Notes under the pieces: model-generated | Databases searched by the model: none | What the model was told of the DNA's origin: nothing | Seen by the model: the letters and a program-made list of their open reading frames with translations, nothing else | NCBI GenBank assembly: GCA_023213315.1 | Contig: JAKCPI010005176.1 | Coordinates: 1 to 64,000 of the forward strand | Direction of reading: 5' to 3' | Origin: Euborellia annulipes | Lineage: Eukaryota; Arthropoda; Insecta; Dermaptera; Anisolabididae | Length of the DNA: 64,000 nucleotides | Position numbers and translations under genes: made by a program | In this document: positions 7,977-64,000 of the stretch, one piece after another | Numbering within the stretch: the stretch's first letter is position 1 | Layout: every line of letters begins with the position of its first letter

Positions 7977-8826
7977 ATGGAATTTATAAAAGCCACCAGA
8001 TATTTCTACTATCCATCTCTATTATTAGGTGTAACCCCTTTTATTATTTTCAAATCATCAGATAATATAAACATAAAAAATAATCAGATTTATAATTATT
8101 TAGGAAAATTATGTTTAATATTTTTAAATATTTTAATTAATTTCTCTCTCTTTTCTAGAGATTTAAAAAATTTAAATCAATTGGTTTTATTAATATCAGA
8201 TATAATATATGAAATTTCACTTATTACCTCATTTATCTCAATGATAATATATAAAGAAAATTTAAAAAAATTTATCTAATTTGCTTAAAATTTTATGATA
8301 ACAATAAATCAATTCGTAAATATTCTAATTTAATAAATAAATTTATAATAATAAACATAATTTGGTTTTGTTTTAGTAGTAATTTTTTTTATATAATTTT
8401 ACCATTTATAGCAAATAAAACTCTTTCTATTTATTTGTTAAATGAATGGTATTTTTGGGTACCTTATCTCTTTATACAAATTTATGAATTTTTTTCTATT
8501 TTCATTTTCATCTTTTTCTTTATATTTTATATTTTTTCTTTAAAACGTTTAATGAGGATTTATTACAATATAATTTTAATATTAATCAATATTCCATTGT
8601 TCATAATATTTGCTCATTATTGCAAGAAGTATATGAAAAGAAATTATTAATAATGTTTTCTCTTCATCTCTGGTGGATAGTTTATGTTTTATTTTTATTT
8701 TTTACAAGAATTATTTATAATTCAGAAGATAAAATTTTTGGACGAATACGTTCAATTTTATATTTGTTTTATGAGCTCCAACATGTATTGATCGTATGCT
8801 ATTTGTGTGAAAAGATTAAAAAACAG
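7977..8826 (+). pseudogene. Gustatory receptor variable exon A1 (two frameshifts)
   Basis: The N-terminus MEFIKATRYFYYPSLLLG identifies a family A receptor exon, and CEKIKKQ followed by the donor GTAATC at 8827 closes it. The reading frame changes near 8270 (after KENLKKF; the next frame gives LICLKFYDNN) and again near 8490 (after QIYEFF; the next frame gives LYILYFFFKTFNEDLL). If both shifts are real the product is lost; single-base homopolymer errors are also possible. It is closest in its first 25 residues to A4. YAG stands 7 bases before the ATG. It is the first receptor copy from the left. Confidence 0.8.
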
Positions 8827-8918
8827 GTAATCACCTATACAAATGAATAGTGTGTTGAATACTTGGCCTGATGTATACGTGAGTGCATGCTGGGAGTTTG
8901 AGCCCAAATAGGCTTAAG

Positions 8919-9303
8919 GTGCGCGTCTCAAAAAACGGTTAGAACACTGTTGACTACCGAGTTACTCGAGACGGCAAGAGATGGCGTTAGTTTTCCCATA
9001 AGAATACAAGGGACTTTTCCCATTTCATTCTAGAGCTTCCAGCTAATTAATTAAAGGCAAAAAATTAATTATTCTTTAACACAATGATTACTAATTTAAT
9101 TATCTACAACTTATAGAGCTCCTTTTTTAAAATATATTTTAATCTAAAAAAAAATTCATTTTTTCGAAAATAAAAAAAAAGGGCTTCTAAGTTATAGATA
9201 TTTGAAATAGCTTTAATTTAAAAAAAATTTGAGATCGATAGCTTCAAAATTGTGGCCGCTGGAAACTCCCAAAATCAGCACCCCGAGACGCGCACCTTAA
9301 ACC
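8919..9303. mobile_element. TTAA-flanked MITE with GGTGCGCGTCTC termini
   Basis: The left end TTAAGGTGCGCGTCTC is mirrored by GAGACGCGCACCTTAA at the right end, giving a 12-bp inverted repeat inside TTAA. A TTAA duplication would suggest piggyBac-like mobilisation, but the terminus is not the usual CCYT, so superfamily is open. Fragments: about 715-800, 20720-20990 (reverse) and 31409-31560. Confidence 0.65.
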
Positions 9304-9516
9304 CTCCATCTATCAAAAACTCCTAGATAGGTCTGTTCACTATATACACTAGTAGAAAAGCCAAATACTGACACTTGTTAATTCTGCTTCACAACATCGT
9401 AAGGTTTGATTGAAATTTGAAAACTTGATCGTAATTAAACAATAGGGAGAGTGGGGGAATATGGCATCCAAACTCCTCTTCACTGAATTTTGATATAAAA
9501 AAAAATATCTAGAGTG

Positions 9517-9782
9517 CAAGGGCGGATACAGGGGGGGGTAAAGGGGGTAATTACCTCCCCCCCCCCGAGATTCGAAAAAAATACCTTTTTTTTCGCAAAA
9601 AAATTTATTTTTAATGTAAAATTTTTAAAATTAATACTTAAAAATTTGATGTGTATTTATATTCTGGCAAACAAATACAGAATGCGCTTTTTAATTACCG
9701 AAATTAAAAAAAAATAGTGTGCTGTGCGACGAGTCACACCAGATTACCCCCCCCCCGAGAAACACCTCTGGATCCGCCCTTG
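9517..9782. mobile_element. 266-bp hAT-like element, 8-bp TSD CTAGAGTG
   Basis: The ends CAAGGGCGGATAC and GGATCCGCCCTTG are inverted. CTAGAGTG is duplicated at 9509-9516 and 9783-9790. A decayed third copy lies at about 9838-10089. Confidence 0.85.
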
Positions 9783-10471
9783 CTAGAGTGTTAAAATTTT
9801 CAATATAGGTATAGAATTTTTTATATTATTTTAATTCATTTGAAGGAGGGGGGGTGTTAATTACCCAGATCATCAAACCCTACTCCCCAGAAAAATATTT
9901 TCTGGCCAACACTCTGCTTTGAATTATATTCTTGTCTATTTATTTGTATATACCTATATTCAGGTAAACAAGTACAGAATGCAAATTAAATTACGGAAAA
10001 TAAGAGAAAGTTGTGTGCTGGGCAACCAGCAACACCAGATTACCCTCCCCCTTCCTCCCAGCAAAAAACTCCTCAGGATCCGGCCTTAGTTCTCTTTATT
10101 TCTTCTCTTAGTTTTCATTATGTCCGAAGACTTTTCTTTCTTTTTTCTAGACTCGCCTCTTCTAAACATTATAATTAGAGAGCGGAAAAAAAGTCTTTCG
10201 ACTTATGTCAATTTTGAGACTTCCAGATTTTTTTTAGATATCTCCACTGTTCTCACAAAAAGAAACGTTTTTTTAGATTTTCAAAAACGACTTTTTTGGC
10301 TCTTTTTTGCCTCTCAGAGATTTTTATTGAAAAAAGCGACTTTTATGACCAACTTTTGATGATTTACATCTTTAATTCTAATATATCGGCGCAAACTACA
10401 TATATGTCGACAAAAAAGATCTGGTGTGACAAGCACAAAACACTTTCAATTACCGAAGGTAGGAGAAAGTT

Positions 10472-10733
10472 GCCCACGGGGCTTGGAGTAGTTGGTAGCG
10501 TGCCTACCTTCTATACCGAACGTCGCGGGTTCGAACCCCAGGCAGTCCGAAAATTTTATTTAAGGCATTTGGATACCAAATGGCTTAAATATAAATACCT
10601 GGACTCCCAATAGATTTATTAAAACATACGTGTATCGTTCAAAGTCTAACAATGTAAGTTGCCGAAAAGACTGTGTGAATGTGAGTGTGAATGAGAAAAG
10701 AGAGTAAATGTTTTTTTTATAAAAAAAAAGGAC
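10472..10733 (+). mobile_element. tRNA-derived SINE1, inserted in a Rep1 hairpin
   Basis: The head has an A-box-like AGTTGGTAGCGTGCC and a B-box GGTTCGAACCC, the RNA polymerase III promoter of tRNA genes. The body follows, then a GTGTGAATG-type microsatellite and poly-A. AAAGTTG occurs immediately before (10465-10471) and after (10734-10740), splitting the Rep1 hairpin, so this is a retroposition target duplication. Not a functional tRNA: there is no acceptor stem after the B box. Confidence 0.8.
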
Positions 10734-10770
10734 AAAGTTGTATTCTGTGCGACCAGTCACACCAGATTTT

Positions 10771-11352
10771 TACTTTTGTACTAATGAAATTAATTATTTT
10801 TTTATTTATTTAATTAAATTCTAAATAACTCTGGAATATTCTGGTTATTGATAGTTAAGTTCTCTATTTTTTTTTACTTTCTCATATTATTAATTGTTAA
10901 AGTTGATAGAGACTTTTTGCCAAAAACGGGCATTTTACCGACTATTTGGCTAAAAAAGGTAGACTTTAAAGGAGACTTTTTCCGATCTTTAATTTAATAA
11001 AAAGAATATTTATACACTATATAGAAATAACAAATACCTCTGAAATGTGCGTCTTCGCTGAGCGCCTAGAGAGTAGGCATCACTTTGTCTTGAGATGCGA
11101 TGCTTGACAGCTTAGGAAAGGCGCAAACGACACAAGGGTGGCGGACGGGTAGTGGTGGATTAAGAGGCACAAAAATCTGAAAAGAAAACATTGAGTTTAG
11201 GTCTATTTATTCCCTCTTATATATTAATGCATTATTTATAGTATTGATTATATTTAGATAAAAAACAGAAAATTTTTTTTTTTATAAATTCGAGATATCG
11301 AAGATAAATAGTAATAAATGACTCACTTCATTTTATTTAATTCATTTTCAAA
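10771..11352. other. Spacer upstream of B1, no gene seen
   Basis: AT-rich. A GC-balanced patch at 11040-11170 has broken frames resembling an old element but no recognisable domain. The last 100 bases are AT-rich and contain no YAG-7-ATG arrangement. Confidence 0.35.
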
Positions 11353-12176
11353 ATGAATTTTGTTAAAGCAACTTCATATATATTTTTAATTTCAAAATTA
11401 AGTTGTTTGTTAATTTTAAATTCAAAAAATTTGAATTATAATTTTTTTAGAGTTTTAATTTTTTTATTTCTCTCTTTATTAAATTTTTATTCATTTTTGT
11501 ATCATAAATTTAATAATTCGTTTGCGGAATTTTTAAAAATTATCGGATATATTTTTGATTTCATTTCATTAATTATTAATTTCTGGACTTGTTTTAGATT
11601 TGAAAAAGAAATTGCTTCTTTGATTAAGAAAATTAATAATTTAACAATTGATCTAGAACAATTTAATACAATTTCTCTTCTGTCTAAATTTAAAATAAAT
11701 TTATTATTAATTAGTTGTTTCATAGGAATATTGTTTAGATCATTAACAATCGGCTCAAATGATTTAATTCGAAATATAAGCATTACTTTTATAAATGATG
11801 GTAATGATTTTTATATTTTTTTATGTGAATGTCACTTTCAATCCTTTATTGAATTATTTTATTATTTATATCTAAATATTAATAAAAAATTGTTAAAAAA
11901 TTTGAAATTATCAGATATAATATATCTACGTAAACGATGTAGAGAATTTGAAAAAATAACAAATCGTATTAATGATATTTATCAATTAAGAAATTTAATA
12001 TGTTTCGGGCAAAATTTTATTTGGATTAGCCAATTTGGTTTTAAATTGATTGGTTTAATAAGAGATCAATATTTTAAAATGGATATTTGGTATTTTTTGG
12101 AAATTTGTAAATGGATTATTTTTTTAATAATTCGATCGTTTTATTTTTATTTATTTGTAATGCATACAAAAATGAG
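11353..12176 (+). CDS. Gustatory receptor variable exon B1 (divergent, end frameshift)
   Basis: It begins MNFVKATSYIFLISKL and keeps the receptor layout of six hydrophobic segments, but diverges strongly from family A; B2 is its only close relative. Shared marks are the internal-loop IYQLRNLICFGQ (B2: IFQLRNLITIGQ). The open frame runs to HTKMR. The frame that aligns with B2 near the end instead gives ICNAYKNE directly before the donor GTAAGT (12177), as B2 gives CSWIKKE. So one base is probably missing or extra in the T-rich run at about 12135-12160, and the true exon is phase 0. The ATG lies in TTTTCAAAATG, without the YAG spacing of family A. Confidence 0.75.
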
Positions 12177-12389
12177 GTAAGTTTATTTTTAAATTCATTT
12201 CTATTATTTTTTTTTTTTTTACAAATGAACAGTGGCGTTTTTTCAACTTTTTCTTAGGGGGGAGGGGGCAAACATTTTTTTTTCTTAAAATTTACTTACA
12301 AATAGGTACTCAAATTTGGCCAAAAGATATTTAATTGAATTAATTGTAGAATTTTAAACAGTTTATATACTCGTAGATATATTTTGAAA

Positions 12390-12660
12390 TTTTTTTTTTT
12401 TTTTTAACATTCACACTTTTTTCTCATTCACACTGACACTCACACACACATTCACACAGTCTTTTCGGCAACTTAGGCCATTTAAGACTTTAGACGATAA
12501 CCGTTATAATTAATATATATATTGTGGGTTCAAGCATTTCTATTTAAGCCATCTGGTATCCAAATGGCTTAAATAAAATCATCGGACTGCCTGGGTCCGA
12601 ACCCGCGATGTTTGGTATAGGAGGTAGGCACGCTACCTACTACGCCAAACCCGGGAGCCC
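12390..12660 (-). mobile_element. SINE1 copy, reverse orientation
   Basis: Poly-T at 12390-12405 (the tail), a CATTCACAC-type microsatellite, the body, then the tRNA-like head in complement (TACGCCAAACCCGGG near 12650). The B box is slightly changed. Confidence 0.75.
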
Positions 12661-12829
12661 ATCTGATATTTAAAATATGCTATTGGTTTATACTGCCTGG
12701 GGTCCATTGGCTGATTTTTCACTATAAAATTTGTCTACATGCAATTATTTTAAAATAACTTTCGATATCGTAATAGGAAAAATAAGTTTTTGCTTTTTTT
12801 TTATACAATATGGTTTATTTCTACGATTG

Positions 12830-12935
12830 ACTAAAAAACAGGTTGACAATCTGCTAGTATAATTTAAGAAATTAAATATTGATCAATTATTATTGATTAA
12901 TTATTGTTTATGTAAGTTATTTTTTTAGTTTAAAA
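12830..12935 (+). promoter_or_regulatory. Conserved 5' flank of receptor exons (example at A2)
   Basis: Repeated TTGATTAATTA-like motifs (here about 12880-12905) followed by TTTTTTTAG and exactly 7 bases to ATGGA. The same arrangement precedes almost every family A copy (A1, A3, A4, A6-A17, A20, A21 fit the YAG-7-ATG rule; A18 has 1 base; A19 does not fit). TTGATTAATTA could be a homeodomain-type site; YAG could be a 3' splice site or an initiator. The role is inferred only from conservation. Confidence 0.45.
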
Positions 12936-13770
12936 ATGGATTTTATCAAAGCCACACGGTTAATACTTTACCCCTCTAAAATATTAGGTTTAACTCCATT
13001 TGAAATTTTAGGTGAGCCAGGAAATAGGAATATAAAATTCATTAGGCGATATAATATTTTCGGAAAAATATTTCTTTTTATTTTCAATATTACATTTATT
13101 ACTGTTTCATGTGTTATATTAAAAATAGAAGATATAGGTAGTTTGGTAGATTTTTTAACAAATTTGATATTTCAATTTAATTTTTTTTACAACATTTATT
13201 CTAACTATAATACATCAAAGAAAATATAAAATTTTAATTTTGAAAAATTTAAAATATTATGATAATAATTATTCAATCTGTAATAAATATTTTTTGCAAG
13301 TTTTTAGATTAAATATAGTTAATATATTTTGGTGGTTATCGTCTTTTATTTTTGGTACTTTATTTTTTTTTACAAATAAAGGAATTATTGCTTTTTTACT
13401 TATATTTTTTTTTAATGTCTTAATGGCAATATATGAGTTTTTCTTTTACGCCCAATATTATCTTTTTCTATATATTTTGTATTATTTTTTGAAATCGTTT
13501 AATGAAAATTTTTCATATCTTAACGTCCATCAATATTCGTTAATACATTATATATCTCAAATATTACAAGAAATTTATGAATTCAAAATACTTTTAATAT
13601 TATTTGCACAATTTTTTTGGATACTTTTTGTTTTATTTATTTACTTGTCGACTATTATATATAACTCTGAAAAAAAAACTCACTGTCTTTTGATTGTACT
13701 CTCATCTATGTATTACGAAGCTCAACAAATCTTCTTCATGTGTTTTATTTGCGAAAAAATTAAACAAGAG
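12936..13770 (+). pseudogene. Gustatory receptor variable exon A2 (frameshift in T8)
   Basis: Nearly identical to A3 and A8. It starts MDFIKATRLILYPSKILG and ends CEKIKQE before GTAATT (13771). One T too many in the run at about 13183-13190 (8 T where A3 and A8 keep frame) puts the rest out of frame, and the second part reads on as KNLKYYDNNYSICNKYF. Length 835, one more than a multiple of three. Either a very young pseudogene or a homopolymer error. The 5' flank, with TTGATTAATTA-type motifs and YAG 7 bases before the ATG, is shared with A3 and A8. Confidence 0.85.
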
Positions 13771-14021
13771 GTAATTATTTTTTTTTATGTTATTAGTTTC
13801 GAATCTATAACTATACCGGTCAAAAGGGCTTTTAATAAGAATTGAATTTAGAGGCAGTTTTAATTAATTTTAATAATTTACCCTGCAAGTATCTTAATGA
13901 TTTTCTTGGACATCTGCCTAAAAAACAGGTTAACAACCTGCTAGTATAAATTACGAAATTAAATATTGATTAATTATTATTGATTAAATATTGTTTTTGT
14001 AAATTATTTTTTAGTTTAAAA

Positions 14022-14855
14022 ATGGATTTTATCAAAGCCACACGGTTAATACTTTACCCCGCTAAAATATTAGGTTTAACTCCATTTGAAATTTTAGGTG
14101 AGCCAGGAAATAGGAATATAAAATTCATTAGGCAATATGATATTCTCGGAAAAATATTTCTTTTTATTTTAAATATTTCATTTATTACTGTTTCATTTAT
14201 TATATTAAAAATTGAAGATTTAGGTAGTTTGGTAGAGTCTCTAACAAATTTGGTATTTGAATTTAATTTGTTTACAACTTTTATTCTTTCTATAATACAT
14301 CAAAGAAAATATAAAATTTTAATTTTAAAATATTTAAAATATTATGATAATAATTATCCAATCTGTAATAAATATTTTTTGCAAGTTTTTAGATTAAATA
14401 TAGTTAATATATTTTGGGGATTATCGGCTTTTACTTTTAATATTTTTATTTTTTTTGAGAATGAAGGTATTATTGCTTTTATATTTGTATTTTTTTTCAA
14501 TGCCTTTATCACAATTTATGAGTTTTTCTTTTACGCCCAATATTATCTTTTTCTATATATTTTGTATTATTTTTTGAAATCATTTAATGAAAATTCTTCA
14601 TATCTTAACGTCCATCAATATTCGTTGATATATTATATATCTCAATTATTGCAAGAAATTTATGAATTTAAAATAATTATAATATTATTTGCACAATTTT
14701 TTTGGATTATTTTTGTTTTATTTATTTACTTGTCGACTATTATATATAACTCTGAAGAAAAAACCCAGTGCCTTTTGATTGTACTCTCATCTATGTATTA
14801 CGAAGCTCAACAAATCTTCTTTCTATGTTTCCTTTGCGAAAAAATTAAACAAGAG
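14022..14855 (+). CDS. Gustatory receptor variable exon A3
   Basis: An intact 278-codon exon taken as the family type. The cytoplasmic N-terminus MDFIKATRLILYPAKILG is followed by GLTPFEILGEPGNR, echoing the GLxPF motif near the start of insect gustatory receptors. Hydrophobic segments lie at about residues 42-62, 72-92, 122-145, 150-188, 228-252 and 258-272. The loop FLKSFNEN...QLLQEIYEFK precedes segment five. It ends FLCFLCEKIKQE at the phase-0 donor GTAATT (14856). The TM7/TYxxxxxQF part must come from another exon. An in-frame Met 14 codons upstream is ignored because all relatives start at MDF. Confidence 0.88.
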
Positions 14856-15094
14856 GTAATTATTTTTTTATTTTTTAAATTCCACTTCGAAAATGTACAT
14901 TTTCTGTGCGACCAGTCACACCAGATTTTTTATCTACAAAATAGAGTTAATCACTCCGCCTAGCATTTAACCGAGAAGTTGCTCCAAACGCCACATGTGG
15001 CGCAACCAATCAAGAACGCCTTGTAGTTATGCAAAAACTTTACAGGCTAGATATTTTGAATGCCTACTTTTTAGGAATTCTTTTTAATTTTTAT

Positions 15095-15725
15095 TTTCTA
15101 TATACCTAGTATCTTAATATATATAAAGTTTTGGATTTATGTCGAGATTTTGATGGATATACACGTTTTGAGTCCCCTGAATAAAAAAAAAAGTGGTTTT
15201 CGCGACATGGTCTGTCTGTGTGTGTGTGTCAGTGTTCAACTTTAAGCATGAAGGAATTAAGCTATGCGGCTGAAATTTTATATTTAAGTTAGACACCCCT
15301 CTGGAGCGAGAGAAAATAAGCTTTTAAACAAAAAGTAAGGCCAAAAAGTACTAGTACGTATAATACTTTACTTTTTCACTTTTTATCGATTTTCTCAAAA
15401 TTCGCTCAAATGATTTTGATTAAAATTCAAAAATCAATTATTTTTCAAATGCTCTTTCAAATGTATATTCTCATTTAGCCCTCAAAATTATTTGAAGCAT
15501 ACTTTACTCTTTTACTTCATAGGAAAAATAAGAAATGGTTGCAATGGTAACAAGATATAAATATTTTACAATGTTTATAAATTGTACATCTTGAATTTTA
15601 ATATATCGGTGGAAATTAAATATATGTCGACACAAAAAATCTGGTGTGACAAGCACAGAACACAACTTTCGATTTCCGAAGGTAAGAGAAAGTTGTGTGC
15701 TGTGCGACCAGTCACACCAGATTTT
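15095..15725 (+). repeat. Rep1 copy, left end truncated
   Basis: Has the ATTTATGTCGAGATT block, the GTCTGTCTG microsatellite, AAGTACTAGTACG and the complete terminal hairpin AATCTGGTGTGAC...GTCACACCAGATT (about 15636-15725). It lies between A3 and A4. Confidence 0.75.
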
Positions 15726-15933
15726 CTGCTTTTTTACAACCACCAAATAAATAAATTAAGTAATCCTTCAAAAGAAATATGATTGTAGAATTCGAACATT
15801 CATCAAAGTATAAAAGGTCAATTACAAAATTAAATGTATCGTTAATAACGAAAATTATTAAATAAATATAAACATATTGATTAACTAGGAATTGATTAAC
15901 AAGGATCATTATTAACAATTTCTTAGTAGTAAA

Positions 15934-16785
15934 ATGGATTTTAACCGTGCCACTCGATACATTCATTATCCTTCTAAACTCTTAGGTGTGATCCCATTCC
16001 AAATTATAGGCTCACCGGGGAATAGATGTATAAAAAAATTTAGAATTTATAATTATATAGGAAAATTTATACATATTTTTTTAAATATTTCTATATTAAT
16101 GTTGTTTTTTTTGATTCGTGTAGAAAATTTAAATCATTTGGTTCTTTTATTTACGGGCATCTGTTACACATCATCAAATTTATTAACGTTTAGTCTATCA
16201 TTGATTTATCAAAAAAAATTGATATTTCTTTATTTAAATTTTATAAAATTTTATGATCAAAATCAAACATGTCATAAATTTTTAAAACAAATTTTTAGAT
16301 TTACCATTCTAAGTGTAATTTATAATTTTGTATGTTATTCTCTAATTAATTTTTTAATTCCGTATTTAAATAAAGATAATTTTAGTTTTGATAATTTTTT
16401 TATGAAAGTATTTTTTTGGGGGATATATAGTTTAAATGATATTTACGAATACGTTTTCTATTCACAATATTTACTTTTTCTTTTTCTTTTATATATTTTT
16501 TTAAAATCATTTAATGAAGATATGTTAAATAGGAAATTTAATATTCGTCAATATTCAATATTACACAATTTAGCACAAACGGTTCATGAAATTTTTGAAA
16601 TTAAATCATTGTTAATTTTCATAATGCAATTTTGCTGGACAGTTTATGTTTTATTTACATTTTTTAAATGTGTCATTTATGATTGTCCTGATAAAATGTC
16701 TCCTATTCAAATGGTTGAAACTTTAAGTTATGAATTTCTAGAAATAATTCTTATTTGTTATCTTTGTGAGAAAATTAAACAACAG
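15934..16785 (+). CDS. Gustatory receptor variable exon A4
   Basis: Intact, 284 codons, starting MDFNRATRYIHYPSKLLG and ending CEKIKQQ at the donor GTACAT (16786). It keeps GVIPFQIIGSPGNR, YDQNQTCHKFL in the first long loop and LLYIFLKSFNEDML before segment five. With A1 it forms a small subgroup that has RY in place of RL at residues 8-9. The receptor fragment A5 begins only 45 bases after its donor, leaving no room for a private 3' exon before it. TTGATTAAC motifs occur twice in the 70 bases upstream. Confidence 0.87.
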
Positions 16786-18138: not shown

Positions 18139-18722
18139 AAAATTCAACTGAGGGCTCGCTGGTGTAGTGAGCTAGGGTGTCAGCTTCTGCAAAGAAGATC
18201 CCTGTTCAAATCCTTGGCGTGCGGGATTTTTCATTAAATAAAAATATTTATTTAATGTAAACAAATCCTCAAGCAAGCCCTGGATTGGAATATAGGATCT
18301 TACCACATTAGCCCTCAGGCAACTCTACGAGGAGAGGGAGTTGCTGTGACATCCCGTCCTGTGGAAGGGACGTAAAGAAGGTTCCCTCTCAGTGATGCAT
18401 TCCTCGAAAGGAGCAGGCTACACGCCGGTGCTGAGGGAGTCCCTCCTCAATTAGGACATCCTCCATAGCATAGAAGAGGTTGGATATAAGGAGCCGGTTG
18501 GAACCAGAAATAAGGATTAGTTCACTAGCTAGAGACGAAAGCAGGAGGAGGAGTTAGAGATAGGAAATGATGTAACTTCACGGGGTGCCGGTAGATGGCT
18601 ACGGCCAGAGGCCGGTTGGGTTTGAGGTGTGTGTCTTCGTACACGAAAGCACCTCGGGCAAATAAACGGGGATCCCGATAGGAATTTCAAATAAATAAAA
18701 AAAAATAAATAAAATTCAACTG
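18139..18722 (+). mobile_element. SINE2: 560-bp tRNA-headed retroposon with 12-bp TSD
   Basis: The insert 18151-18710 is flanked by a perfect 12-bp repeat AAAATTCAACTG (18139-18150 and 18711-18722). The head has an A-box-like GCTGGTGTAGTGAGC and B-box-like TGTTCAAATCC. The end is A-rich (AATAAATAAAAAAAAATAAA-like). A reverse partial copy of the head sits at about 21395-21505. No protein is encoded. Confidence 0.8.
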
Positions 18723-42244: not shown

Positions 42245-43205
42245 ATCACTCAGATTCTAACATTGTTCGCTGATAAAAATCTATAGATGTTTTGTAGCAT
42301 AGCACTATCGGCCCCATATAAAATTGAGTTTAGACTCCTTGGTCTTGTTACGTCCCTTTGGTCCAAATATCTATCGAGGTCTGTCCTTTCGAGCAGAGAG
42401 CATGATAATACCAGGTGGTTTAAGTCGCAGGTGACGGCTGGATCGCAATTGCATACGTCGTCCTCGACGACTCCAATTCTCCTCAAATGAGCAGGAAAAC
42501 AGCCATGCCCGAGTCTCAACCGAGTTATAATAGAATAAAATGCTCTACTGGCCTTTATATTGTTGAACCATGACTGTGAGCCTGCCGCAGGGTTTATTAA
42601 ATAATAATTCCTCCTCTCTCTCTCTGGAGGAAGAATTCCAAAATTCCTGCCATTTGTTAATAAATATATTCCTCACAACAGCAGCCAAATCGTCGGGCGT
42701 GACATGAATGTGGGTATACTCTGAAGAAGATATTGCTTCATTGGCAGCAACATCGGCTGCTTCATTACCAGAAATTCCTACGTGGCTTCTAACCCAGATA
42801 AATTTAATTGATTTGTTCATCAAACGAGCCCTCAAGATTTCCTGCTTTATCTCCAGAATATTAGCTTGCTGGTCAAACAAGTTGCTGTTCTGAAGCTTAT
42901 GGATAACGCTCCTGGAATCCGTAAGAACAGAAAAGGAAGTGTGGTTCACGTGCAAACAGTATTTAAGAGCTTCTAGAATTGCTGTGCACTCTGCTGTAAA
43001 AATGCTGGATTCCCTTGGAAACTTGAACTTTGCAGAAACCCTTGCTTGAGGATCGAAGTAAGCAGCACCAACAGGATCTTTTCTCGAGTGTTTGGACCCA
43101 TCAGTGAATATTAAATAACTACCTGGGTTAATATCATCAACATGAGCTTTGAATATAGTTTCTGTCGCAGCAGGATTATTCCAAAGACAATTATATATAG
43201 AGAGA
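42245..43205 (-). mobile_element. LINE fragment with RNase H domain, reverse strand
   Basis: On the minus strand, from 43205 downward: LIFTDGSKHSRKDPVGAAYF, FTAECTAILEALKYCL, VLTDSRSVIHKL, KFIWVRSHVGISGNEAADVA. These supply the D-E-D-D residues of the RNase H fold. After a frameshift near 42560 the conserved LINE tail LRLGHGCFPAHLRRIG follows with a CNCD...HLVLSCSL zinc-like region. It is the 3' third of an ORF2 from an RNase H-bearing clade (R1, I or Jockey-like). 5' part absent, so inactive. Confidence 0.85.
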
Positions 43206-43254
43206 AACGCGGTGTTAAAATTTGAAATATTGTTTTTTTTTTTTTTATTTATTT

Positions 43255-51093: not shown

Positions 51094-51215
51094 GTAAATT
51101 TATTTGACACCTTATTTTTCTTTCAACTTTTTGTTTATTCACAAAATGGAATATAATTAATTCACATAGGCCTACTCCTTAAAAACGTTAAAAAATTATT
51201 AAGATTTTAAATCAT

Positions 51216-51901
51216 AAAAAAATCTGGTGTGACTGGCGCACAGCACACAACTTTCTCTTACCTTCGGTAATCGAAAGTTGTGTTCTGTGCTTGTCACACC
51301 AGATTTTTCGTGTCGAAATATATTTAGTTCCCGACAGTACGGTACATTTGAATTCAGATGTAAAATTTATAAGTATGGGAAAATATTTATATTTTGTTAC
51401 CATGGCAACCATTTTTCCTATCTTTCCTATGAAACACAAGAGTAAAGTGGTCTTCAGAAGATTTCAATCGCAAAATGAGAATATACATTTTAAAGAGCAT
51501 CTAAAAAATAATTGATTTTTGAATTTAAAAAAAAATCGTTGGAGCAAATTTTGAGAAAATCGAAAAAAACTGAAAAAGTACATCAGTAAAGTACTAGTAC
51601 TCTTTGGCCGATTTTGATTAAAAGCTTATTTTTCCGGTCCCGGGGGGTGTTTAACTTAAATATAAAATTTCAACCTCGTAGCTCAATTCCTTCATGCTTA
51701 AAATTGAACACACACCCACCCACCCACACACCCACACACCCACCCACCCACAGACAGACCATGTCGCGAAAACCACTTTTTTGGATTCAGGGGACCTCAA
51801 AACGTGAAGATCCATCAAAATCTCGACATCGAATTTTTGACATGAATCCAATACTTTCTCTCTATATATATATTACATATATACATAGGTAAGAGAAAGT
51901 A
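51216..51901 (-). repeat. Complete Rep1 copy, reverse orientation
   Basis: Runs from the AATCTGGTGTGAC hairpin end to GGTAAGAGAAAGTA and includes all blocks in mirrored order. It is the best reference for the full length, about 690 bases. The microsatellite is CACCCACC-rich. Confidence 0.8.
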
Positions 51902-52299
51902 ATATTGCTGACTTTATACACTCTAAGTTATATTGTGTTTCCAAAATTTTTGAAAAAACTTATTAGGAAAAGTACTTCTTGCAATTGATCTATTTATTTC
52001 AAAAGTTGATACAGATCTACAATTTTAGTGTAAGATGTATATGCCAAATTTCATTGACATGACTGATATAAATGGATATATTAATACATGTATACATATA
52101 AAATAAGTTCCTGAATGGTCACAGAAGCAGAAAAAGGGAATTAAAAAAAATAAATTTACGCTTAATTTTCAAAAATTGTGGCGTGGCCGATTCCGACGCT
52201 TGTAATGTTAATTTTTTTTTTTTTTTTTTTTTGTGATATACAGTAGGCCTATATCAATGATTCGATTGTTAAAAAAAAACTTTATGTTATATACATATA

Positions 52300-53466
52300 T
52301 ATAGAGAGAGAGAAAATGTATTGCATTAATGTCAAAAATTCGATGTAGAGATTTTGATGAATATACACTTTTTGAGGTCACCTGAATCCAAAAAAGTGGT
52401 TTTCGCGACATGGCTTGTCTATCTGTATGTCTGTGTTCAATTTTAGGCATGAAGCATTGAGCTAAGATGTTGAAATATTATATTTAAAGTTAGACACTCT
52501 TCTAGAGCGTAAGAATAAGCTTTAAATCAAAATCGGTCAAAAAATACTAGTACTTTACAGAGGTACTTTTTCAATTTTTTTCGATTTTCTCAAAATTCGG
52601 TCAAACGATTTTGATTAAAATTCAAAAATCAATCATTTTTTAGATGCTCTTTCAAAAATATATTCTCATTTTGCTCTCAAAATTGTTTGAAGCACACTTC
52701 ACTCTTGTACTTTATAGAGAAGATAGGAGAAATGGTTGCCATCAGGGGTGCCGGAACGAATTCGAATCAGGGGGGGGGGGGGGGCAAAAAAATTTTTTTA
52801 GAAAATTAAAATAATTTAATATGTTCAAATAGCATAAAACAAAAACAAATCTACTATAAAGCTTTAAAAGTTTTAAATAAAATCACAATTTTAATAAAAT
52901 TAAAATTTTAAAAAATTTGCTAGTGATTTTATCAAAAGTTTTTTTAGGCTATATTTATACTATTTGAAGTAAATAAATATTTTTAATTATCTTCTTTTAA
53001 TTCAATATAAAATGTTTTTAGAAATTAGAAATACAATAGGGTCTAAAGCCTAAAATATTTTGGGAAAAAAAATGAATTTCTTACTCTTTTAATTTTTTTT
53101 AAAAGATTTTATTTTTCTAAAGTAAAAATTTTAACTAAAGTAAAAATGTATCATTAAAATTAAATTGAATAAAAGAAGACATATTGCCCCTTATGCCCCC
53201 TCCTATAGGACGCCAGGGGGGCAATGTACCCTCATCCCCCCAGTTCTGGCGCCTATGGTTGCCAAAAAGACTGTATGTATGTGTGTGTGAATGTGAGTAT
53301 GAATAGAAAAAAGTGTGTTAAAAAATATATATATAGACTATATATAGGCGGAACCTAAAATATCTCGACATAAAAAAATCTGGTGAGACAAGCACAGAAC
53401 ACAACTTTCGATTACCGAAGGTAGGAGAAAGTTGTGTGCTGTGCGACTATCACACCAGATTTTTTT
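52300..53466 (+). repeat. Rep1 copy disrupted by a hAT-like element and SINE1 tail
   Basis: Rep1 blocks run from 52300 to about 52742. A hAT-like element (52743-53257) follows, then a SINE1 3' tail (about 53262-53330), then the Rep1 hairpin end (53367-53466). Confidence 0.65.
52743..53257. mobile_element. hAT-like element, reverse relative of 23592-24260
   Basis: Starts CAGGGGTGCCGGAACG and ends GTTCTGGCGCCTATG. Flanks GTTGCCAT and GTTGCCAA agree at 7 of 8. The right flank continues as a SINE1 tail, not as Rep1, so the match may be chance similarity between the two repeats rather than a target duplication. Confidence 0.7.
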
Positions 53467-53594
53467 ATAGTTATGATAATTTATTATTAATCAATTATAG
53501 TGCAAATCAATTAACTTAATAAGATATTTTTGAAAATTTTCCATTAAGAAAATTATTTTTTACTAGGGGAATGTTTAATTTAATTCATTTCAAG

Positions 53595-55935: not shown

Positions 55936-56107
55936 TATTTCCCTGATACTCATCAACAACCCTCGTCCAGCTATAAATCTACTTTTCTCAATATACTTCT
56001 TATAGTAAAATTTTAGATCTGTATCAACTTTTGGAGTAAATCTGTCAACTAAAAGCGGTACCTACCAAAAAGCATTTTGAAAATTTAAAAATGCTTGCTA
56101 CTCTGAG

Positions 56108-56361
56108 CATGGGCGTACCCAGGATCAAATCTAGGGGGGGGGGCATGGTCAGATCATGGTCGTCCAGATTGTGGCATAGCATATAGAGAGGTAAAGCCTT
56201 CGAATTAAAGGCCTAAAAACCCTCGAGTCCTAACAAAAAGAATCATTCCCGTCGCCATACACCAATTTTGTTTCGTTTCATCACTTTATAAACATTTAAT
56301 TTTTTTTGTTGTTCTAGGGGGGGGGCAGCTGCCCCCCTGCACCTCGCTAGGTACGCCCATG
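56108..56361. mobile_element. 254-bp hAT-like element, 8-bp TSD ACTCTGAG
   Basis: CATGGGCGTACCCAGG and GGTACGCCCATG ends, with ACTCTGAG at 56100-56107 and 56362-56369. Complete relative of 36777. Confidence 0.88.
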
Positions 56362-56639
56362 ACTCTGAGCCTAAAAACCAAAAAGTGGCTGAAAATACCG
56401 CTTTTGGGCGGTAATGCAATTAGTAGCCACAGTATTGAAAAATTTAAAGTACTCTAGATAATTAAATTTATAGAAAAATTTGTGAAAATTTCTTTTCACT
56501 CATGTATGAAAATAACGATTGTTATTAATTAATCAATTATAGTGCAAGGCAATTAAACTTAATTAGAAAATTTTTAATATTTTTCATTAAGAAAATGATT
56601 TTATACTTGGTAAGAATGTTTAATTTAACTCATATCAAG

Positions 56640-57538
56640 ATGGAATATTCCCACGTTAATAGTAATTTTTATCGCGTTTCAAAATATCACGGTCTTTTTC
56701 CATTTCATTTAGGTGACAATAAAAATTCCACTCAACATTCAAATCTTATATTAGCAATTAGTTGGATTATTTTTACATTTTCTGTAATTTATCAATCAAT
56801 TCATTTAGAAAACGAATTTAAATCAGACGTGGAATCAATTATGGTATGGTTGGGTGATATCGTCGCTCTTATTTCAGCTATTTCTAATTTCCTCACCTGC
56901 CATATCTTTCGATATCAAAGATCTAATTTAATTTTTTTATTTGACAATATTAAAAACGTCCATTATCGTTCTATTTCTCGATTTAATTTAATTTTCATAA
57001 TTTTATTCATTATTTTGAATATTCAAAAAATTGTTTTATTTTTATATATATTCGAATTTTTTTCAAATAGGCAAACTATTTTTATTTTTATTAATAAAAT
57101 AATCACAATCATTTATGATGATATTGCAATTTTATGCTCTTTGGAATTTACTAGTAATGTTTTAGCAATTTATTTAAATCTAATTAAATTGAATGAACAA
57201 TTGCAAGAAAATAAAATTAATATTGAACAAATTAAATCTATTATGAAATGGTATAGGAATATTGCAAATGCGGTAAATTTTTTTTTTTTAATATTAGTAA
57301 AAATATAATTTTTTTAATTTCTTATTTATACGGATAGGTTGATTCGGTTGCTGATATTTTTCAAACTGCAAATTTAACACTTTTTTGTTTATTCGTCAAA
57401 TGGATGATTTGTACATTGTTTTATTTATTTTTTGTACCTCTTCCTCTCGTCAATCGAATACTTGTTTTCACATGGATTTTGAATATTTGTTTTAAATGTC
57501 TCCCAGTAATTTTGGCACCAGTATTTGCAATCAGAAAG
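56640..57538 (+). CDS. Gustatory receptor C2, two exons of a longer gene
   Basis: Exon 1, 56640-57272 (211 codons), MEYSHVNSNFYRVSKYHG to WYRNIANA. Intron 65 bases. Exon 2, 57338-57538 (67 codons), VDSVADIFQTANLTLFCLF to LPVILAPVFAIRK at the donor GTAAGA (57539). Close to C1 across both exons and in the flank (TTATTAATTAATCAATTATAGTGCAA). Compared with C1 one codon is lost in the loop PLPLVNRIL. Substitutions are mostly conservative, as expected of a functional pair. Confidence 0.86.
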
Positions 57539-57865
57539 GTAAGATAAACCTTTATAATTAAAATAAGGACAAAGAAATGAGTTAACTAAATTCCAGCACT
57601 TAATCAAAAATTCTATTATTACCAACAAATGATGGCATATATCCTTTAAAACACAAAAATTTTCCTTATTTGAAAGAATAAGTAATTTTTATGTTTTTAC
57701 GAAGGTTTTTGGGGAGTCGCCCCTGAATATGCTACTGATTTCTTCTCGTAGCTCATTTTCTTTATGCTTTATTTTGAACAGGGACCTAGGGGATCTCAAA
57801 GAGTGTATTTCCAACAAAATCTCAACAGAGAGAAGTTTTTGTTAGAAAAAATACTAAAAATCATG

Positions 57866-57960
57866 GGAACGCCTTAAGTTAGGCAACCAGAAGCGTTGCT
57901 AGGCTGGGATTTACGTTCTACCCTCTCCCACTCTGGTTGTCTAACTCCTAGGCGTTCTCT
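57866..57960. repeat. Short imperfect inverted repeat
   Basis: GGAACGCCTTAAGTTAGGCA and GTCTAACTCCTAGGCGTTC pair across a GC-rich centre. The piece that follows, CAGTGATTCCTAAAGTGG at 57970, looks like a hAT 5' end. No gene. Confidence 0.45.
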
Positions 57961-58229
57961 TGATTTAAAACAGTGATTCCTAAAGTGGTCTATATCGACC
58001 CCCAGAGGTCGACGACGACCCGATACGCAAATAAATTATAATGTAGTCTACTGCCAGAAACTAAAAACGGTATATGTCGACACAAAAAATCTGGTGGGAC
58101 AAACACAGAACACAACTTTTAATTACCGATGATATGAGTGCTGTACCACCAGTCAGAATAAATATTTCTCTTTTATTTTCTAAATTCTCTAAACTCCGTA
58201 TGTAGTTGTTCGATATTTATATATATAAA

Positions 58230-58925
58230 AAAAAATTATCAGTGATTAAGGTGATTCAGAAGACACTGCCTTCAAAACAAGATCTTACACAGAGGAGCTG
58301 GCAACACACAATTGTAACCCTTAAATGGGTGCCAGGACATGCAGGAATACAAGGCAATGAAGAAGCAGACCAACTAGCAAGGATGGGAGCAAATACTCCT
58401 TTCACAGGGCCCGAACCAGCCTGTGGGCTGTCGCAGAAGCACCTAAGACTGGAAATCGGACGATGGAAGGAAGACGAAAACAAAAAGCTATGGGCAAAAA
58501 ACCCAGGCTTAAGACAAGCGAAGAATTTATAACACTTCCGCAACAAAATGTAAAGAGGCTTATCACTCTAAACAGAAATGAACTAAGACTGATAAGTGGT
58601 CTTCTAACAGGACACTGTCCTTTAAAATATCTAATGAAGATGGGCAGAGCTGATGACAATACATGTCGCCTCTGCAATCTGACAAAAGAAACGGCGGAAC
58701 ACATCATGTGCGAATGTATTGCACTAACCCGTCACAGAAAGCTAATTTTCGAAAGGGCTGAAATAAAACCTGAGGAAATATCAAAAGCCTCTCCAAAGAA
58801 TTTACTGGCCCTGTTAAAAGCGACGGGTCTATTCTAAGGACAAATATTGGACAACAAAGGATAGAACAAAAGATCAATTAATGGTCGCAGTTCAAAGTGT
58901 CTTAGGTCCATAATAATAATAATAA
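58230..58925 (+). mobile_element. LINE fragment with RNase H and C-terminal zinc motif
   Basis: TIVTLKWVPGHAGIQGNEEA gives the end of an RNase H domain. Then comes the ORF2 tail: LRLEIGRWKEDENKKLW, after a frameshift near 58530 FITLPQQNVKRLITLNRNEL, SGLLTGHCPLKYLMKMG, and CRLCNLTKETAEHIMCEC with the C-x2-C...H...C pattern of Jockey/R1-type elements. The stop is at 58835 and the tail ends in (ATA)n. 5' part missing. It differs in sequence from the fragment at 42245-43205, so two LINE lineages were present. Confidence 0.87.
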
Positions 58926-59199
58926 TACACAGAGGGTAACTTATAGTACACTTTTAGAGATGAAGTATTTACCTTTTTTCGAATATAGAGCTTATCACTC
59001 TGACTTTGGGAGGCAGGCAATAGATGAAAAGCCTAGATTCTTCGAATTCGGAAATGCTCTGTAAAAAAAGAAAATATATTAATTTTAATTATAAATTCTT
59101 AGCTTTGAATGTCTAATAAATATAACTTATTTTTATTTCCCCCTCCCCATTTTGGTGATGTTAACATATGTCAATATTGATATTTTATTTATTTTCTTA

Positions 59200-59420
59200 A
59201 AAACAACACGTTTTTCTCATTCACACTCACAATCACACATACATCACACAGTCTTTTCGGCAACTCAGGCCTTATAAGACTTTAACGATACACTAGTTAA
59301 TATATATACATATATATTTGGGGTCCAGGCATTCTTATTTAAGCCATTTAATAAAAATCATCGGACTGCCTGGGGTCCGAATCCGCAACCCTTGGTATAC
59401 AAGGCCAGCACGCTAGCCAC
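59200..59420 (-). mobile_element. SINE1 copy, reverse orientation
   Basis: CATTCACACTCAC microsatellite, AGTCTTTTCGGCAAC, ATTTGGGGTCCAGGC and the complement of the B box GGGGTCCGAATCC. Followed downstream by a second, forward SINE1 3' part at 59945-60140. Confidence 0.7.
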
Positions 59421-60483
59421 TGCAATTTTTGATATTCTTAAAGACAAGGGGTGCAGGCAGTGGCGAATTTCCTATCAGGCAAGTTGACTGAAAAATTTTT
59501 AAGGGTGGTAAATTTTCAAAAATGAGCCAAAATTTTACATTCTGACAAGAATAGGCAGAGGCCTAGGCTAAAGAGGCAATTTATTCGAACTATTTATAGA
59601 CATGTATTGAATATATTTTGTTTTTACGTAAAGGCCCGAAATAAATATTTTGCCTAGGGCCCAAAAGAGTTTAAATCTGCCCCTGAGAATAGACGGAAAA
59701 ATAAATAAATAAAGTAAATCCACCACTGGGTGCGCAGTGAATATTTATTTAAATAATTTAAATACCAAATGGTTTAAATAAATATGCCTTGACGCCAATA
59801 TATTAAAATATCGTTTAATATCTATGTCCTAAAATGCCGAATAAAAAAACAACATATTTTTATATAGAGCTGCCCTAGTTTTTGCGGGGCCCTCCCTAAA
59901 ATATATTGAGTAACATATTATTAATAAAAATTGACCAAACGTCGGGGTTGGACCCAGGAGTCGATGATTTTATTTAAGCATTTGGATACCAGATGGTTAA
60001 ATAGAAATGTGAACCCAAATTGATATATTAATTACAACGTTATCGTCAAAGTCTTATATGGCCTAAGTTGCCGAAAAGACTGTGTGAATGTGTGTGTGAG
60101 TGTGAGTGGAATGAAAAAAAGTGTGAATGTTTAAAAACTCAATAAATAATTAAATAAAAATTGAAACAAATAATTAGTGACGTTAACTTTTCAAAAATTT
60201 ATTGAAACAAAATTGACGAAATTATAAAAACAAAAAAATGTTGTCTTAATTTTTGCATCCCCTGAAAGCTCAGGGGCCGGGGAAGATGCCCCAGGAGCCC
60301 GCTCGCTTGAAATTAATTTTAATTTTCAATTATAATCAAAGGAAATTAATCAAATGAATTGAGTAATCAAATTACTGAAAACATATTTTATTTATTAAAG
60401 ATGCACTTATTTATTTAATTTATAAAATACTTTATCATTTTTCAATAATAATATAATTTCTTAATTTTCTTTAGCATTTCAAA
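59421..60483. other. Spacer with SINE1 fragment before C3
   Basis: Contains GC-poor repeats and the SINE1 3' part at 59945-60140. The last 120 bases are the AT-rich flank of C3. No exon seen. Confidence 0.5.
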
Positions 60484-61423
60484 ATGGATTATTCCCAAGT
60501 TAATAGGAATTTTTATCAACTATTAAAATATTTCGGTCTTTTTCCATTTCATTTAGGTCGTGATCAAAAATCCACCAAGCATTCAAATTTTATTTTAACT
60601 ATTAGTTGGATATTGTTTATATTTACTGTAATCAATCAATCTTTCTATTTGTATACCCGGCGGGGGGGGGGGGCCAACCCGGGGGGGGCCGGTTTTTTGC
60701 AAAAAAAAACAAGGAGGGATATTTCAAAAAGATCAGACTTAGGATCTTTGGTTGTTTTATTGGGTGATCTCATCTGCCTTATATCAGCTATTAGTAATTT
60801 CCTCACCTGTCACTTCTTTCGGTATCGACGTTCTAATTTGATTTTCATATTTATGAAAGACGTACCTTATAATTTTATTTCTAGATTTAATAAAATTTAT
60901 TTTTTCATATTTATAATATTAACTATTCCACAAATTATTTTATTTTTATTTTTGTACAATTTTTTTTTATTATGATAATAGTTTTTTAACTATTCTGAAA
61001 TTTCTCAATGAAATTATCTTCTTAATACATGATACCTTGGGAATATTATGCTATTTAGAATTTATTAATTATGTTTTAGCTATTTATTTAAATATAATTC
61101 ATTTGAATGAAAAATTGCTTGATAAAAAAATTGATATTGACAAAATACAAAATTATACAAGACTATACAGGAACATTGCAAATGCGGTAAAAATAAAATT
61201 GTTAATCTATTATTTATATTAATAAATCAAAAAATCAAAGAATTTATTTAGCGGTAGATTAAGTGGATTTTTTTTCGGGCGGAATTTAAATTTTTTCCAA
61301 TATTTCGAAACTAAATATTGGCCGATATTAAAGAATAATATTATTTTAATTGAAAAGAGAATTAATCATAGGCTCTATTATAGTCGGAGAGCTGGAGACA
61401 AAAATGGGCAAGAGTTTTCTGAA

Positions 61424-62084
61424 GGCTAATATTTTCAGAATAGGTTGCATTTTAGTAATGGAAAGATACTCTAGAGTCAGCACTTCCAGTACCGGGGCGT
61501 TTAGCGGGAATAAGCCGGTAACAGATTGCGGCACTGAAGATGATGTGGTTTTTCGCAGAAATATTTGCCAAATGAAAGACGTATGTGGAGCTAAAAATGC
61601 TGGTTATCTATACAAAATTACATCCCAGCCTAAATCTAAATTACAAATAAAAATGGTCTAGTACATAATCACGCTAAAGTGAACGGTTCGGGAGATATAG
61701 ATGGGTAAAAAATAAAAATTAATATGAAAGGAGACACTAATATAGAGAAATATTTATATCTTGTCACCATGACAACCATTATTAGAATTACAAATTTTAC
61801 CCCTCTATATCTCCCGAACCGTTTACTTTAGCGTGATTATGTACTAGACCATTTTTGGTTGAAATTTAATTTCAAATATTTTGTATAGATGAATTTTTAC
61901 GGAAAACCGCATAGTTTTCGAGATATTTGGGAAAATCCATTTTCCCGCAACTTTACCCGCATAATCCCGCTAAACGGGGCGTTTAGCGGGATTATGCGGG
62001 TAAAGTTGCGGGTATTGAAAGTGCTAACTCTAGAGTATCTTTCTATCACTAAAATGCACTAAACCTATTCTGAAAATATTAGCC
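61424..62084. repeat. Nested inverted repeats within the C3 intron
   Basis: Outer arms: GGCTAATATTTTCAGAATAG...GGGGCGTTTAGCGGGA against their complement at 61970-62084. Inner arms: GGTCTAGTACATAATCACGC near 61655 against GCGTGATTATGTACTAGACC near 61835. The ORF over 61350-61661 is a by-product. Probably a fold-back transposon. Confidence 0.7.
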
Positions 62085-62614
62085 TATTATTTTCTTTTGT
62101 GAACTTTCACAAAAAATTATTGAAATTTTAAAATTCCAAGATTAAAAAAAAAAACTTAATTAAAAAATGACAACATTTAACTCTTGATTTAAATTATTTC
62201 CCTCTAGGAAATGTCCGTCTGTCTGTCGCGCTGTTTGGGCATCTTTCCTTTGGAATTTTAAACGAAATTTTATCTACACAGAAAGGACCTTCTAGGGATT
62301 AAAGAAAAAATATTTTTGTTCCGAAATGTCTATAACTTTTTGAGTTAGGATGTTATGATTCCTCCCTTAGGACTTAAATATGTTTTATATTAATTTATGT
62401 TTAACCTATCTAAAATAAATAATTTTTTAAAGGATGCGCTAGATGATATGTTTCAGGTTTTTATTGGTGGAATAATTATTATTATTTAATTTCGACATTA
62501 GGACATTACGACATTAATTAAAATAATAATTTAAAAGACATTAGGACATTAATATCAAAATATCTAGAAAGAGAATTATTTCACGAATAAAATTTAAAAC
62601 ATATTGCCTGTGTG

Positions 62615-62791
62615 CAGGGCCGGATCTAGGGGGAGGCAGTGGGTGCATTGCCGGGCGGGAGAATCAGGGGGCGGCAATAAAGAAAGATTTTCTAAAAAAA
62701 AAAATAAAATGATATGAATTTTGTATAGAAAATTTTAAGGAAGGGGCGGCAAATTAAATTTGCCTCTAAAAAATCTCGTAGTCCGGCCCTG
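62615..62791. mobile_element. 177-bp hAT-like element, 8-bp TSD CCTGTGTG
   Basis: CAGGGCCGGATCTAGG and GTCCGGCCCTG ends; CCTGTGTG at 62607-62614 and 62792-62799. It lies within the C3 intron. Confidence 0.9.
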
Positions 62792-63754
62792 CCTGTGTGT
62801 CATTTAAAATATTATTTAATACTATGTTTCAACTAGAATCTACGGCCAAGTGTTTAAATTAAATCAGTAATATATATTAATTAATTAATAATATAGTTAT
62901 ACAGTTCAAACGCATGGCAAATAGGAATACAAACAGAATTTTTATAAATTTTTTAGCCTTTTCCCATCTTGGTTTGTTTTTTGTTTTTTTTCTAAATTTT
63001 CCTATAATAAAAATTTGTATTTTATTTCATTTTTATATAGGTGGATTCGGTAGCTGGTATTTTTCAATGTGCAAATTTACTACTTTTTTTGTTTATTCGT
63101 CGAATGGTTAACTATTACGCTGTATTATTTCTATTTATTCTCTACTCTTTCACTTATTGAACGCCTGCTTGATTTGATCTGGATTTGTATAATTATTTTT
63201 AAATGTTTTCCCGTTATTTTGGCACCAATGCTTGCAATTAAAGAGGTAAGATTATAAGCCTTTTTAAAATTCACTAAGAGATTACTAACTTATTATGACA
63301 AAATATTGCTAAAAAGACTTTTTTTTAACACACTTTTTTTCCCATTCAGAAGAAATTATTTTTTCATTTTTATTTAATAAAAGGTTTTTGTTCTGGTTTT
63401 ATTTTTAGTCGTCTGAATCCCCAATACCATTTTGGATTAAATTGAACGTTCGGGGATATAAAGAAATAGAAAAACTTAAAGAAACCTCATTGAGTGTGCA
63501 AAGGAGACTCAAGAGCGCCTGAATGTTATGCAAAAGCTTGGCATAATAGATTAATGTTTTGCCTAATTTAACGGCGGCGAAATATATAAATGTATAATAT
63601 TATCAATATATTCATTTTAATTTAAAAATTTAATCATAATTATCGGAAATCCATTAAATATATTGCCAATCACTTTAATAAATATAATTTTTTTTTTAAT
63701 AATAAAATATAATTATTTTATGATTGATTTCTTATTAATTTTAGTCATTTCAAA

Positions 63755-64000
63755 ATGGAATATTCCCAAGCGACCAAGAATTTATACCGTCTTTCAAAAT
63801 ATTTCGGTCTTTTCCATTCCATTTAGGTCATGATAAAAAATCCACCAAACATTCAAAATATATTTTAACGATTAGTTGGATTATTTTTATATTGTCTGTA
63901 ACATATCAATCTTTTCATTTACATGTTCAGGATAGATATAATGTGGAATCTATTATTGTATGGGCGGGTAATGTCATCAGTCTCATTTCGGCTATTAGTA
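63755..64000 (+). pseudogene. Gustatory receptor C4, partial at window end, early frameshift
   Basis: MEYSQATKNLYRLSKYFG is followed by a one-base loss (GGTCTTTTCC, against GGTCTTTTTCC in C1-C3) near 63810. The other frame continues as LGHDKKSTKHSKYILTIS and VESIIVWAGNVISLIS to the edge. Only about 80 codons are visible. It shows that the family C series goes on to the right, where shared 3' exons would be expected. Confidence 0.8.

Follow-up and report, generated by a model that had tools for sequence, protein, structure and literature searches.

Gustatory receptor (GR) loci that splice alternative 5' exons to shared 3' exons are a known class in insects. In Drosophila Gr39a, as PMC2204066 describes it, large exons that encode six membrane segments and end in splice donors precede three small shared exons for segment 7, and purifying selection is reported. 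In Tribolium castaneum Gr214, 30 long 5' exons are described as alternatives in front of three 3' exons common to all (PMC6307266), and the number 30 reappears, as variants, beside the 17 of Anoplophora Gr99 and the 13 of Leptinotarsa Gr48 (PMC6720082); the largest of the Blattella germanica Gr60a-m and related genes is credited with 13 forms (PMC6175461), and eight alternatively spliced loci are mentioned for Rhyzopertha (PMC8956072). Here we describe a locus that, by its predicted structure, is of the Gr39a/Gr214 type and is itself new and very large, in 64,000 nucleotides of DNA from the dermapteran Euborellia annulipes (positions 1 to 64,000 of contig JAKCPI010005176.1, called C3729 below; this whole stretch is the window). 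In our judgement the window very probably contains most of one giant GR gene, with approximately 30 alternative 5' modules and one shared three-exon tail, the splicing between them being read from sequence. Its plan is that of Gr39a, with some 30 modules here as against four large exons in D. melanogaster (PMC2204066) or the 13 forms of Blattella Gr60 (PMC6175461), and the module number equals that of Gr214, which exceeds every other locus of this kind named in the literature cited here. The likeness to Gr214 is one of descriptions only; what sets the present locus apart on that footing is that three divergent subfamilies would share one tail and that the C modules carry an internal intron.

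The window holds 27 GR 5' modules, namely 21 of family A, two of family B and four of family C, all on the plus strand. This census, first put forward in a first-pass annotation of the sequence, was borne out in two ways. Searching with tblastn and 11 A, B and C queries (E 1e-3) gave no minus-strand match within the window, and in a search of six-frame open reading frames (ORFs) with an A profile all matches at E<1e-4 were on the plus strand, inside A copies or B2, with the best minus-strand ORF only at E 0.1. Note that the C modules are too divergent for the profile search at this threshold, and that B2 is only about 20% identical to A. Twelve of the A copies (A3, A4, A6, A7, A9, A10, A12, A13, A15, A18, A20 and A21) are open from ATG to donor, and the lengths of these (831-858 nt) and of B2 (867 nt) are all multiples of three, exactly within the range of 831-867 given earlier. 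Another six (A2, A8, A11, A14, A16, A17) are open apart from exactly one frameshift per copy, which in A16 is near seven consecutive Ts and in the other five at or near A/T runs of at least eight bases; part of these may be assembly errors. A1, A5 and A19 are heavily degraded. The ratio of nonsynonymous to synonymous change (dN/dS) is below 1 in all 66 pairs of intact A copies, pairs which are not independent, with a median of 0.50, and the intact A copies are under purifying selection.

Where do these exons end? An AG|GTA is present at the joint in 21 of 21 A copies, the donors of B2, C1, C2 and C3 read AG|GTGAGT or AG|GTAAGA, and intact modules end in phase 0 at the donor, directly past membrane segment 6. 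The end is in phase 0 and at an equivalent place in all three families, B1 having its donor one base off, and the earlier statement that C1 and C2 end in this way holds, each of these modules consisting of two exons. When the 12 intact A copies are compared, the amino-acid identity over the seven codons leading up to the donor is 0.89, as against 0.16 over codons 2-8 past it, and nucleotide identity by codon position falls across the joint from 0.93, 0.98 and 0.87 to 0.52, 0.45 and 0.44. What is more, residues 277-285, at the joint, have the highest conservation among the tabulated stretches (0.92). This pattern is not due to chance, and since conservation peaks at the joint and collapses after the donor, the exon ends there.

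The shared tail was found to the right of the window. C3729 ends at 64,710, and a search with C1 exon 2 in the genome assembly (903 Mb, 25,949 contigs) led to contigs C1128, C5685 and C18159, and also, at 31% identity, to C280 and C10830. C1128 1-1801 matches C3729 62873-64710 at 95.7%, a dovetail overlap of 1.8 kb, and C18159 bridges the join: it matches C3729 56417-64710 in three main blocks (96.4-98.6%) and runs on collinearly into C1128 1-2607 (97.3%) and 3172-5684 (94.0%). We read the overlapping parts of C3729, C1128 and C18159 as probable haplotype copies of a single region. On C1128, which was examined over 1-40000 of its 290,729 bases, modules C4 to C7 are followed by three phase-0 3' exons, E1-E3, the only such set found in C3729 and this part of C1128, which has no A or B match. 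E3 carries TYLVILLQF, the TYxxxxxQF ending of segment 7, and ATTAAATAAA comes soon after it. As for the choice of E1, seven small open AG...GT phase-0 stretches between C7 and E2 passed the filter, and E1 is among the two top-scoring ones, the other being the end of C7. The overlap places the tail at roughly 83.9-84.8 kb in window coordinates, approximately 20 kb beyond the window end, and thus within the 50 kb or so to the right in which plus-strand phase-0 exons with this ending had been predicted. The single locus of more than 56 kb proposed earlier would therefore measure about 77 kb from A1 to the end of E3, with 30 modules (21 A, two B and seven C) arranged head to tail over some 73 kb. 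Counted on C3729 and C1128, 17 of these modules have an uninterrupted frame (12 A, B2, C1, C2, C5 and C6) and 13 do not.

The C modules deserve a separate comment. In C1 and C2, both intact, the internal phase-0 intron measures 70 and 65 bases, respectively. Frame breaks vary among the haplotype-like contigs. On C18159, both exons of C3 are open and C2 exon 2 has a break, as does C1 exon 2 on C5685; on C3729 these two second exons are open. Assembly or allelic indels are common. In C3 exon 1, the stretch of about 63 bp at 60656-60718, rich in G runs and absent from C18159 and C5685, is either an allelic insertion or an artefact of assembly.

Eight joined proteins were built in silico, and five of them (A9, A3, A18, B2 and C1) were compared with the 7tm_7 profile (PF08395, cut-off 26.6 bits). 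Among the 5' exons tried alone, A9 is the sole one above the cut-off, with 27.9 bits and a match ending at profile position 297, the others being below it or, like B2, without a match; E1-E3 alone score 91.2 bits over positions 299-369. Joined to the tail, A9 reaches 130.1 bits in a single stretch over positions 2-369, and joined A3, A18, B2 and C1 score 110.0, 109.8, 113.9 and 123.8 bits. That said, the joined score comes mostly from the common tail, and the result therefore speaks for a seamless fit and for family membership, and not for splicing itself. Judged in this way, the joined modules would belong to the insect gustatory receptor family 7tm_7. The tail alone also has a weak match to Trehalose_recp (22.1 bits against a cut-off of 21). 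In the structure modelled, for A9 alone, the predicted fold is that of gustatory and odorant receptors (GR/OR). Searches of the genome-contig and viral-contig collections and of Rfam gave no matches, the protein database had none for A9 or for the A/B alignment, and among sequences of solved structures there was none for the alignment and one weak, unrelated match for A9 (E 0.025).

Several points weigh against a single gene. The join of C3729 and C1128 is one between contigs at 95.7% identity and not one molecule, and the bridging contig itself looks like another haplotype; the search of C1128 covered its first 40,000 bases; a related tail, unlinked to the array, is present on C280 and C10830 (E1 65%, E2 83% and, over 20 residues, E3 95% identical); and the intron starting from A3 would be about 69 kb long and full of repeats. 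Nevertheless, we consider one gene with a common tail to be the best account. According to it, each mature mRNA would consist of one module joined by phase-0 splicing to E1-E3, with each intact module encoding segments 1-6 and the tail encoding the pore-lining segment 7 and the C terminus, so that each receptor would have a private ligand-binding half and an identical pore half. In this sense, the boundary between the variable ligand half and the constant pore half can be placed on a solved receptor structure.

How would one module be chosen out of approximately 30? In clustered protocadherins, each variable first exon has its own promoter and the constant exons are shared. The mode of working proposed here is similar, although the protein family is unrelated and promoter choice is, in our case, a proposal. 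Namely, after selection of a promoter, the module nearest to the cap would be joined to E1, the first acceptor of good quality on its 3' side, the modules lying in between would be removed as intron, and the C modules would remove their own small intron first. Several observations bear on this. Among the 12 intact A copies, 5' flanks are more alike than 3' flanks in 59 of 66 pairs, with conservation extending over about 90 bp and fading by about -100, and when 20 A copies are aligned upstream, a pair of words resembling ATTGATT recurs in many, and all except A18 have an AGT near -9. A strict pair, defined as two TTGAT words 7 to 18 bases apart and scored in A flanks over 120 bp, occurs 18 times on the plus strand of the window, 12 of these in A flanks, and five times on the minus strand, three of them near C1 and C3; 20 second-order random sequences had 0-8, and the flanks of 26 modules make up approximately 5% of the window. 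ATCAA pairs accompany C1, C3, C5 and C6. The ~90-bp flank conservation, together with the TTGAT pair in 12 of the 20 A flanks, suggests that each module may have its own promoter. That said, the remaining eight flanks (A9, A10, A12-A17) have no strict pair, A14 being without the one found in its sister A11 and the clade of A9, A10, A12, A13 and A15-A17 having a diverged form of the paired motif; C2, C4 and C7 are without a clear pair; the AG near -9, usually AG|T, could be either an initiator or an acceptor; and flank conservation could partly reflect the ends of duplication units, all of which count against promoters of this kind.

The last point but one leads to an alternative that we consider unlikely: one promoter with a shared 5' leader, the modules being mutually exclusive internal cassettes and the AG near -9 their acceptor. 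It draws support from an AG that ends 1-7 bases before the ATG in 20 of 20 ATG-bearing A copies, partly after a T-rich stretch, and from a TTTAG 9-10 bases before the ATG of C3 and C4. Yet a T invariably follows the last AG in the 14 A copies in which this AG ends at position -7 or -4, a later AG being present in the remaining six; the C introns, by comparison, have AG|G at each of the three acceptors observed. In addition, conservation reaches out to about -90 and includes the paired motif. As to Drosophila, PMC3237578 reports that isoform-specific drivers of Gr28b label different gut cells, and that two transcripts of Gr23a have one upstream region in common. Taking the flank and motif pattern together with the driver data, we therefore favour promoter selection over a shared leader as the main way in which a module would be chosen. 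The wider proposal is more tentative, and we would put it slightly below an even chance: three subfamilies, including modules with an internal intron, would all be joined to a single constant tail that forms the pore; the ligand half would be picked by switching on one of some 30 short promoters, of which many share a paired TTGAT code; and the genome has a second such locus with its own tail. The locus offers some 30 natural replicates for the question of how a sensory neuron picks a module, with a 5' block motif that is open to experiment.

It is also conceivable, albeit quite improbable, that E1-E3 serve the C modules only, the A/B array being separate, orphaned or decaying, with other 3' exons or none. 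After all, the C modules are nearest to E1-E3 and differ in structure, and nine of the 21 A copies are broken in C3729. However, C3729 and the examined part of C1128 have no other 3' set, the 12 open A copies are under purifying selection, joined A9, A3, A18 and B2 fit 7tm_7 end to end just as joined C1 does, and all three families end at the corresponding phase-0 point.

Private 3' exons for each copy, overlooked so far, are barely credible. Some gaps do measure 1-3 kb, but those after A2, A12, A13 and A20 have only 251, 267, 215 and 328 bp, as annotated before, and each includes the next 5' block. Scanning the window for a segment-7 motif ([TSA]Y.{5}[QEHK][FLIMYV], preceded by a hydrophobic stretch and followed by a stop no more than 20 residues on) gave none on the plus strand and one, not GR-like, on the minus strand, compared with 0-2 in 10 random sequences; a relaxed scan gave 92 plus-strand strings, none of them GR-like by eye beyond the known copies, and 64 on the minus strand. 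No relative of E1-E3 in C3729 is better than E 0.13, in keeping with the earlier failure to find a segment-7 exon in the window. A cross-comparison of the gaps, leaving out 40 bases past each donor and 110 before each ATG, yielded 63 shared stretches, 50 of which also match in opposite orientation, as repeats would. On the strength of the motif scans, this cross-comparison and the E1-E3 search of C3729 and C1128:1-40000, private exons were rejected, and so was a tail between A21 and C1, where almost all of the gap is shared with other gaps (51184-52273, 52342-53484) and no segment-7 motif occurs. Finally, that the donors are simply read through, giving six-segment proteins that end early, is scarcely tenable: each of the 12 intact A copies does reach an in-frame stop 3-35 codons past the donor, but the tails so made share few residues and the donor is kept throughout the A copies and in B2, C1, C2 and C3.

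The plan of an array with its own tail seems to be widespread in this genome. The minus strand of C2037 has 19 A-like stretches, 18 of them long and one short, followed downstream by a segment-7 profile match and a three-exon tail (E1 70%, E2 90% and E3 76% identical to those here). It is a separate locus, and its modules are only 23-36% identical to A9. One-strand arrays of long receptor exons are present on C2037, C25556, C4970, C10125 and C2839, with a segment-7 profile match downstream of the array on all of these but C25556. The locus described here also suggests that automated annotation could label such exons as truncated genes or pseudogenes.

Table. Modules, tail exons and an example of a conserved 5' block (positions on C3729, which are those of the window, unless C1128 is named)
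Feature	Contig	Position	Strand	Remarks
A1	C3729	7977..8826	+	degraded 5' exon, 850 nt; ATG frame has 24 stops; matches in three frame pieces
B1	C3729	11353..12176	+	otherwise open, 824 nt; donor one base out of phase
A2	C3729	12936..13770	+	single frameshift
A3	C3729	14022..14855	+	intact, 834 nt, phase 0
A4	C3729	15934..16785	+	intact, 852 nt
A5	C3729	16827..17619	+	5'-truncated fragment; match from A7 residue 104; split by inserted repeat-like sequence
A6	C3729	19602..20432	+	intact, 831 nt
A7	C3729	22436..23290	+	intact, 855 nt
A8	C3729	24343..25180	+	single frameshift at long T run
A9	C3729	26164..27018	+	intact, 855 nt; modelled
A10	C3729	28403..29257	+	intact, 855 nt
A11	C3729	29632..30482	+	single frameshift near A run
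A12	C3729	31783..32640	+	intact, 858 nt
A13	C3729	32908..33762	+	intact; 215 bp to next ATG
A14	C3729	33978..34828	+	single frameshift near T run
A15	C3729	35682..36536	+	intact, 855 nt
A16	C3729	39492..40350	+	single frameshift near T run
A17	C3729	41126..41984	+	single frameshift near T run
B2	C3729	44072..44938	+	intact, 867 nt; donor GAG|GTGAGT
A18	C3729	45903..46760	+	intact, 858 nt
A19	C3729	47643..47993	+	internal deletion
A20	C3729	49059..49907	+	intact, 849 nt
5' block of A21	C3729	50110..50235	+	paired TTGAT, AGT near -9; similar before other A copies
A21	C3729	50236..51093	+	intact, 858 nt
C1 exon 1	C3729	53595..54227	+	633 nt; phase-0 donor GCG|GTAAAA
C1 exon 2	C3729	54298..54501	+	204 nt; donor AAG|GTAAGA
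C2 exon 1	C3729	56640..57272	+	633 nt
C2 exon 2	C3729	57338..57538	+	201 nt; donor AAG|GTAAGA
C3 exon 1	C3729	60484..61186	+	broken in C3729
C3 exon 2	C3729	63041..63245	+	205 nt; frame broken in C3729, open in C18159
C4 exon 1 start	C3729	63755..64000	+	frame broken; runs off window
C4	C1128	889-1522 / 4575-4778		exon 1 broken
C5	C1128	9013-9648 / 11635-11838		
C6	C1128	12910-13545 / 14484-14687		
C7	C1128	16170-16802 / 18308-18512		exon 2 out of frame
E1	C1128	20956-21024		69 nt, phase 0, ANRTAVIVHKLILTTKDPEVKEE
E2	C1128	21621-21710		90 nt, phase 0, LRIFSLQLLHRKVEFSACGFFPIDFTLLYS
E3	C1128	21781-21858		78 nt, phase 0, MIGAVTTYLVILLQFQLASKSNPNS-stop

A further haplotype-like stretch, C14841:1-10000 (L032), is largely collinear with the window at 39.7-49.3 kb (about 95-99% identity) and has counterparts of A16, A17, B2 and A18 as well as the beginning of a copy resembling A20/A21, the counterpart of A17 being open across query residues 1-280. 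As for the sequence between the modules, interspersed repeats, mostly in both orientations, occupy 51184-53484 and many other gaps, and a hairpin-like repeat piece in gaps ends in CACACCAGATTTTT (raw sequence). Two remnants look like retrotransposons: one at 42253-43252 on the minus strand, with an RNase H at 42548-43252 (E 4.5e-17), and one at 58361-58834 on the plus strand, with a zinc-binding reverse transcriptase (RT) tail below the cut-off (E 1.2e-4). To the left of the array, inverted repeated words of the AGACAGTTCATGAACTGTC type at about 385-1135 resemble, by eye, a small DNA transposon, and open stretches with splice-like edges at 2630-4945 on the minus strand perhaps belong to a neighbouring gene; 4673-4945 has no match, and 2630-2914 has a weak one to RasGAP_C, below the cut-off (E 0.042).

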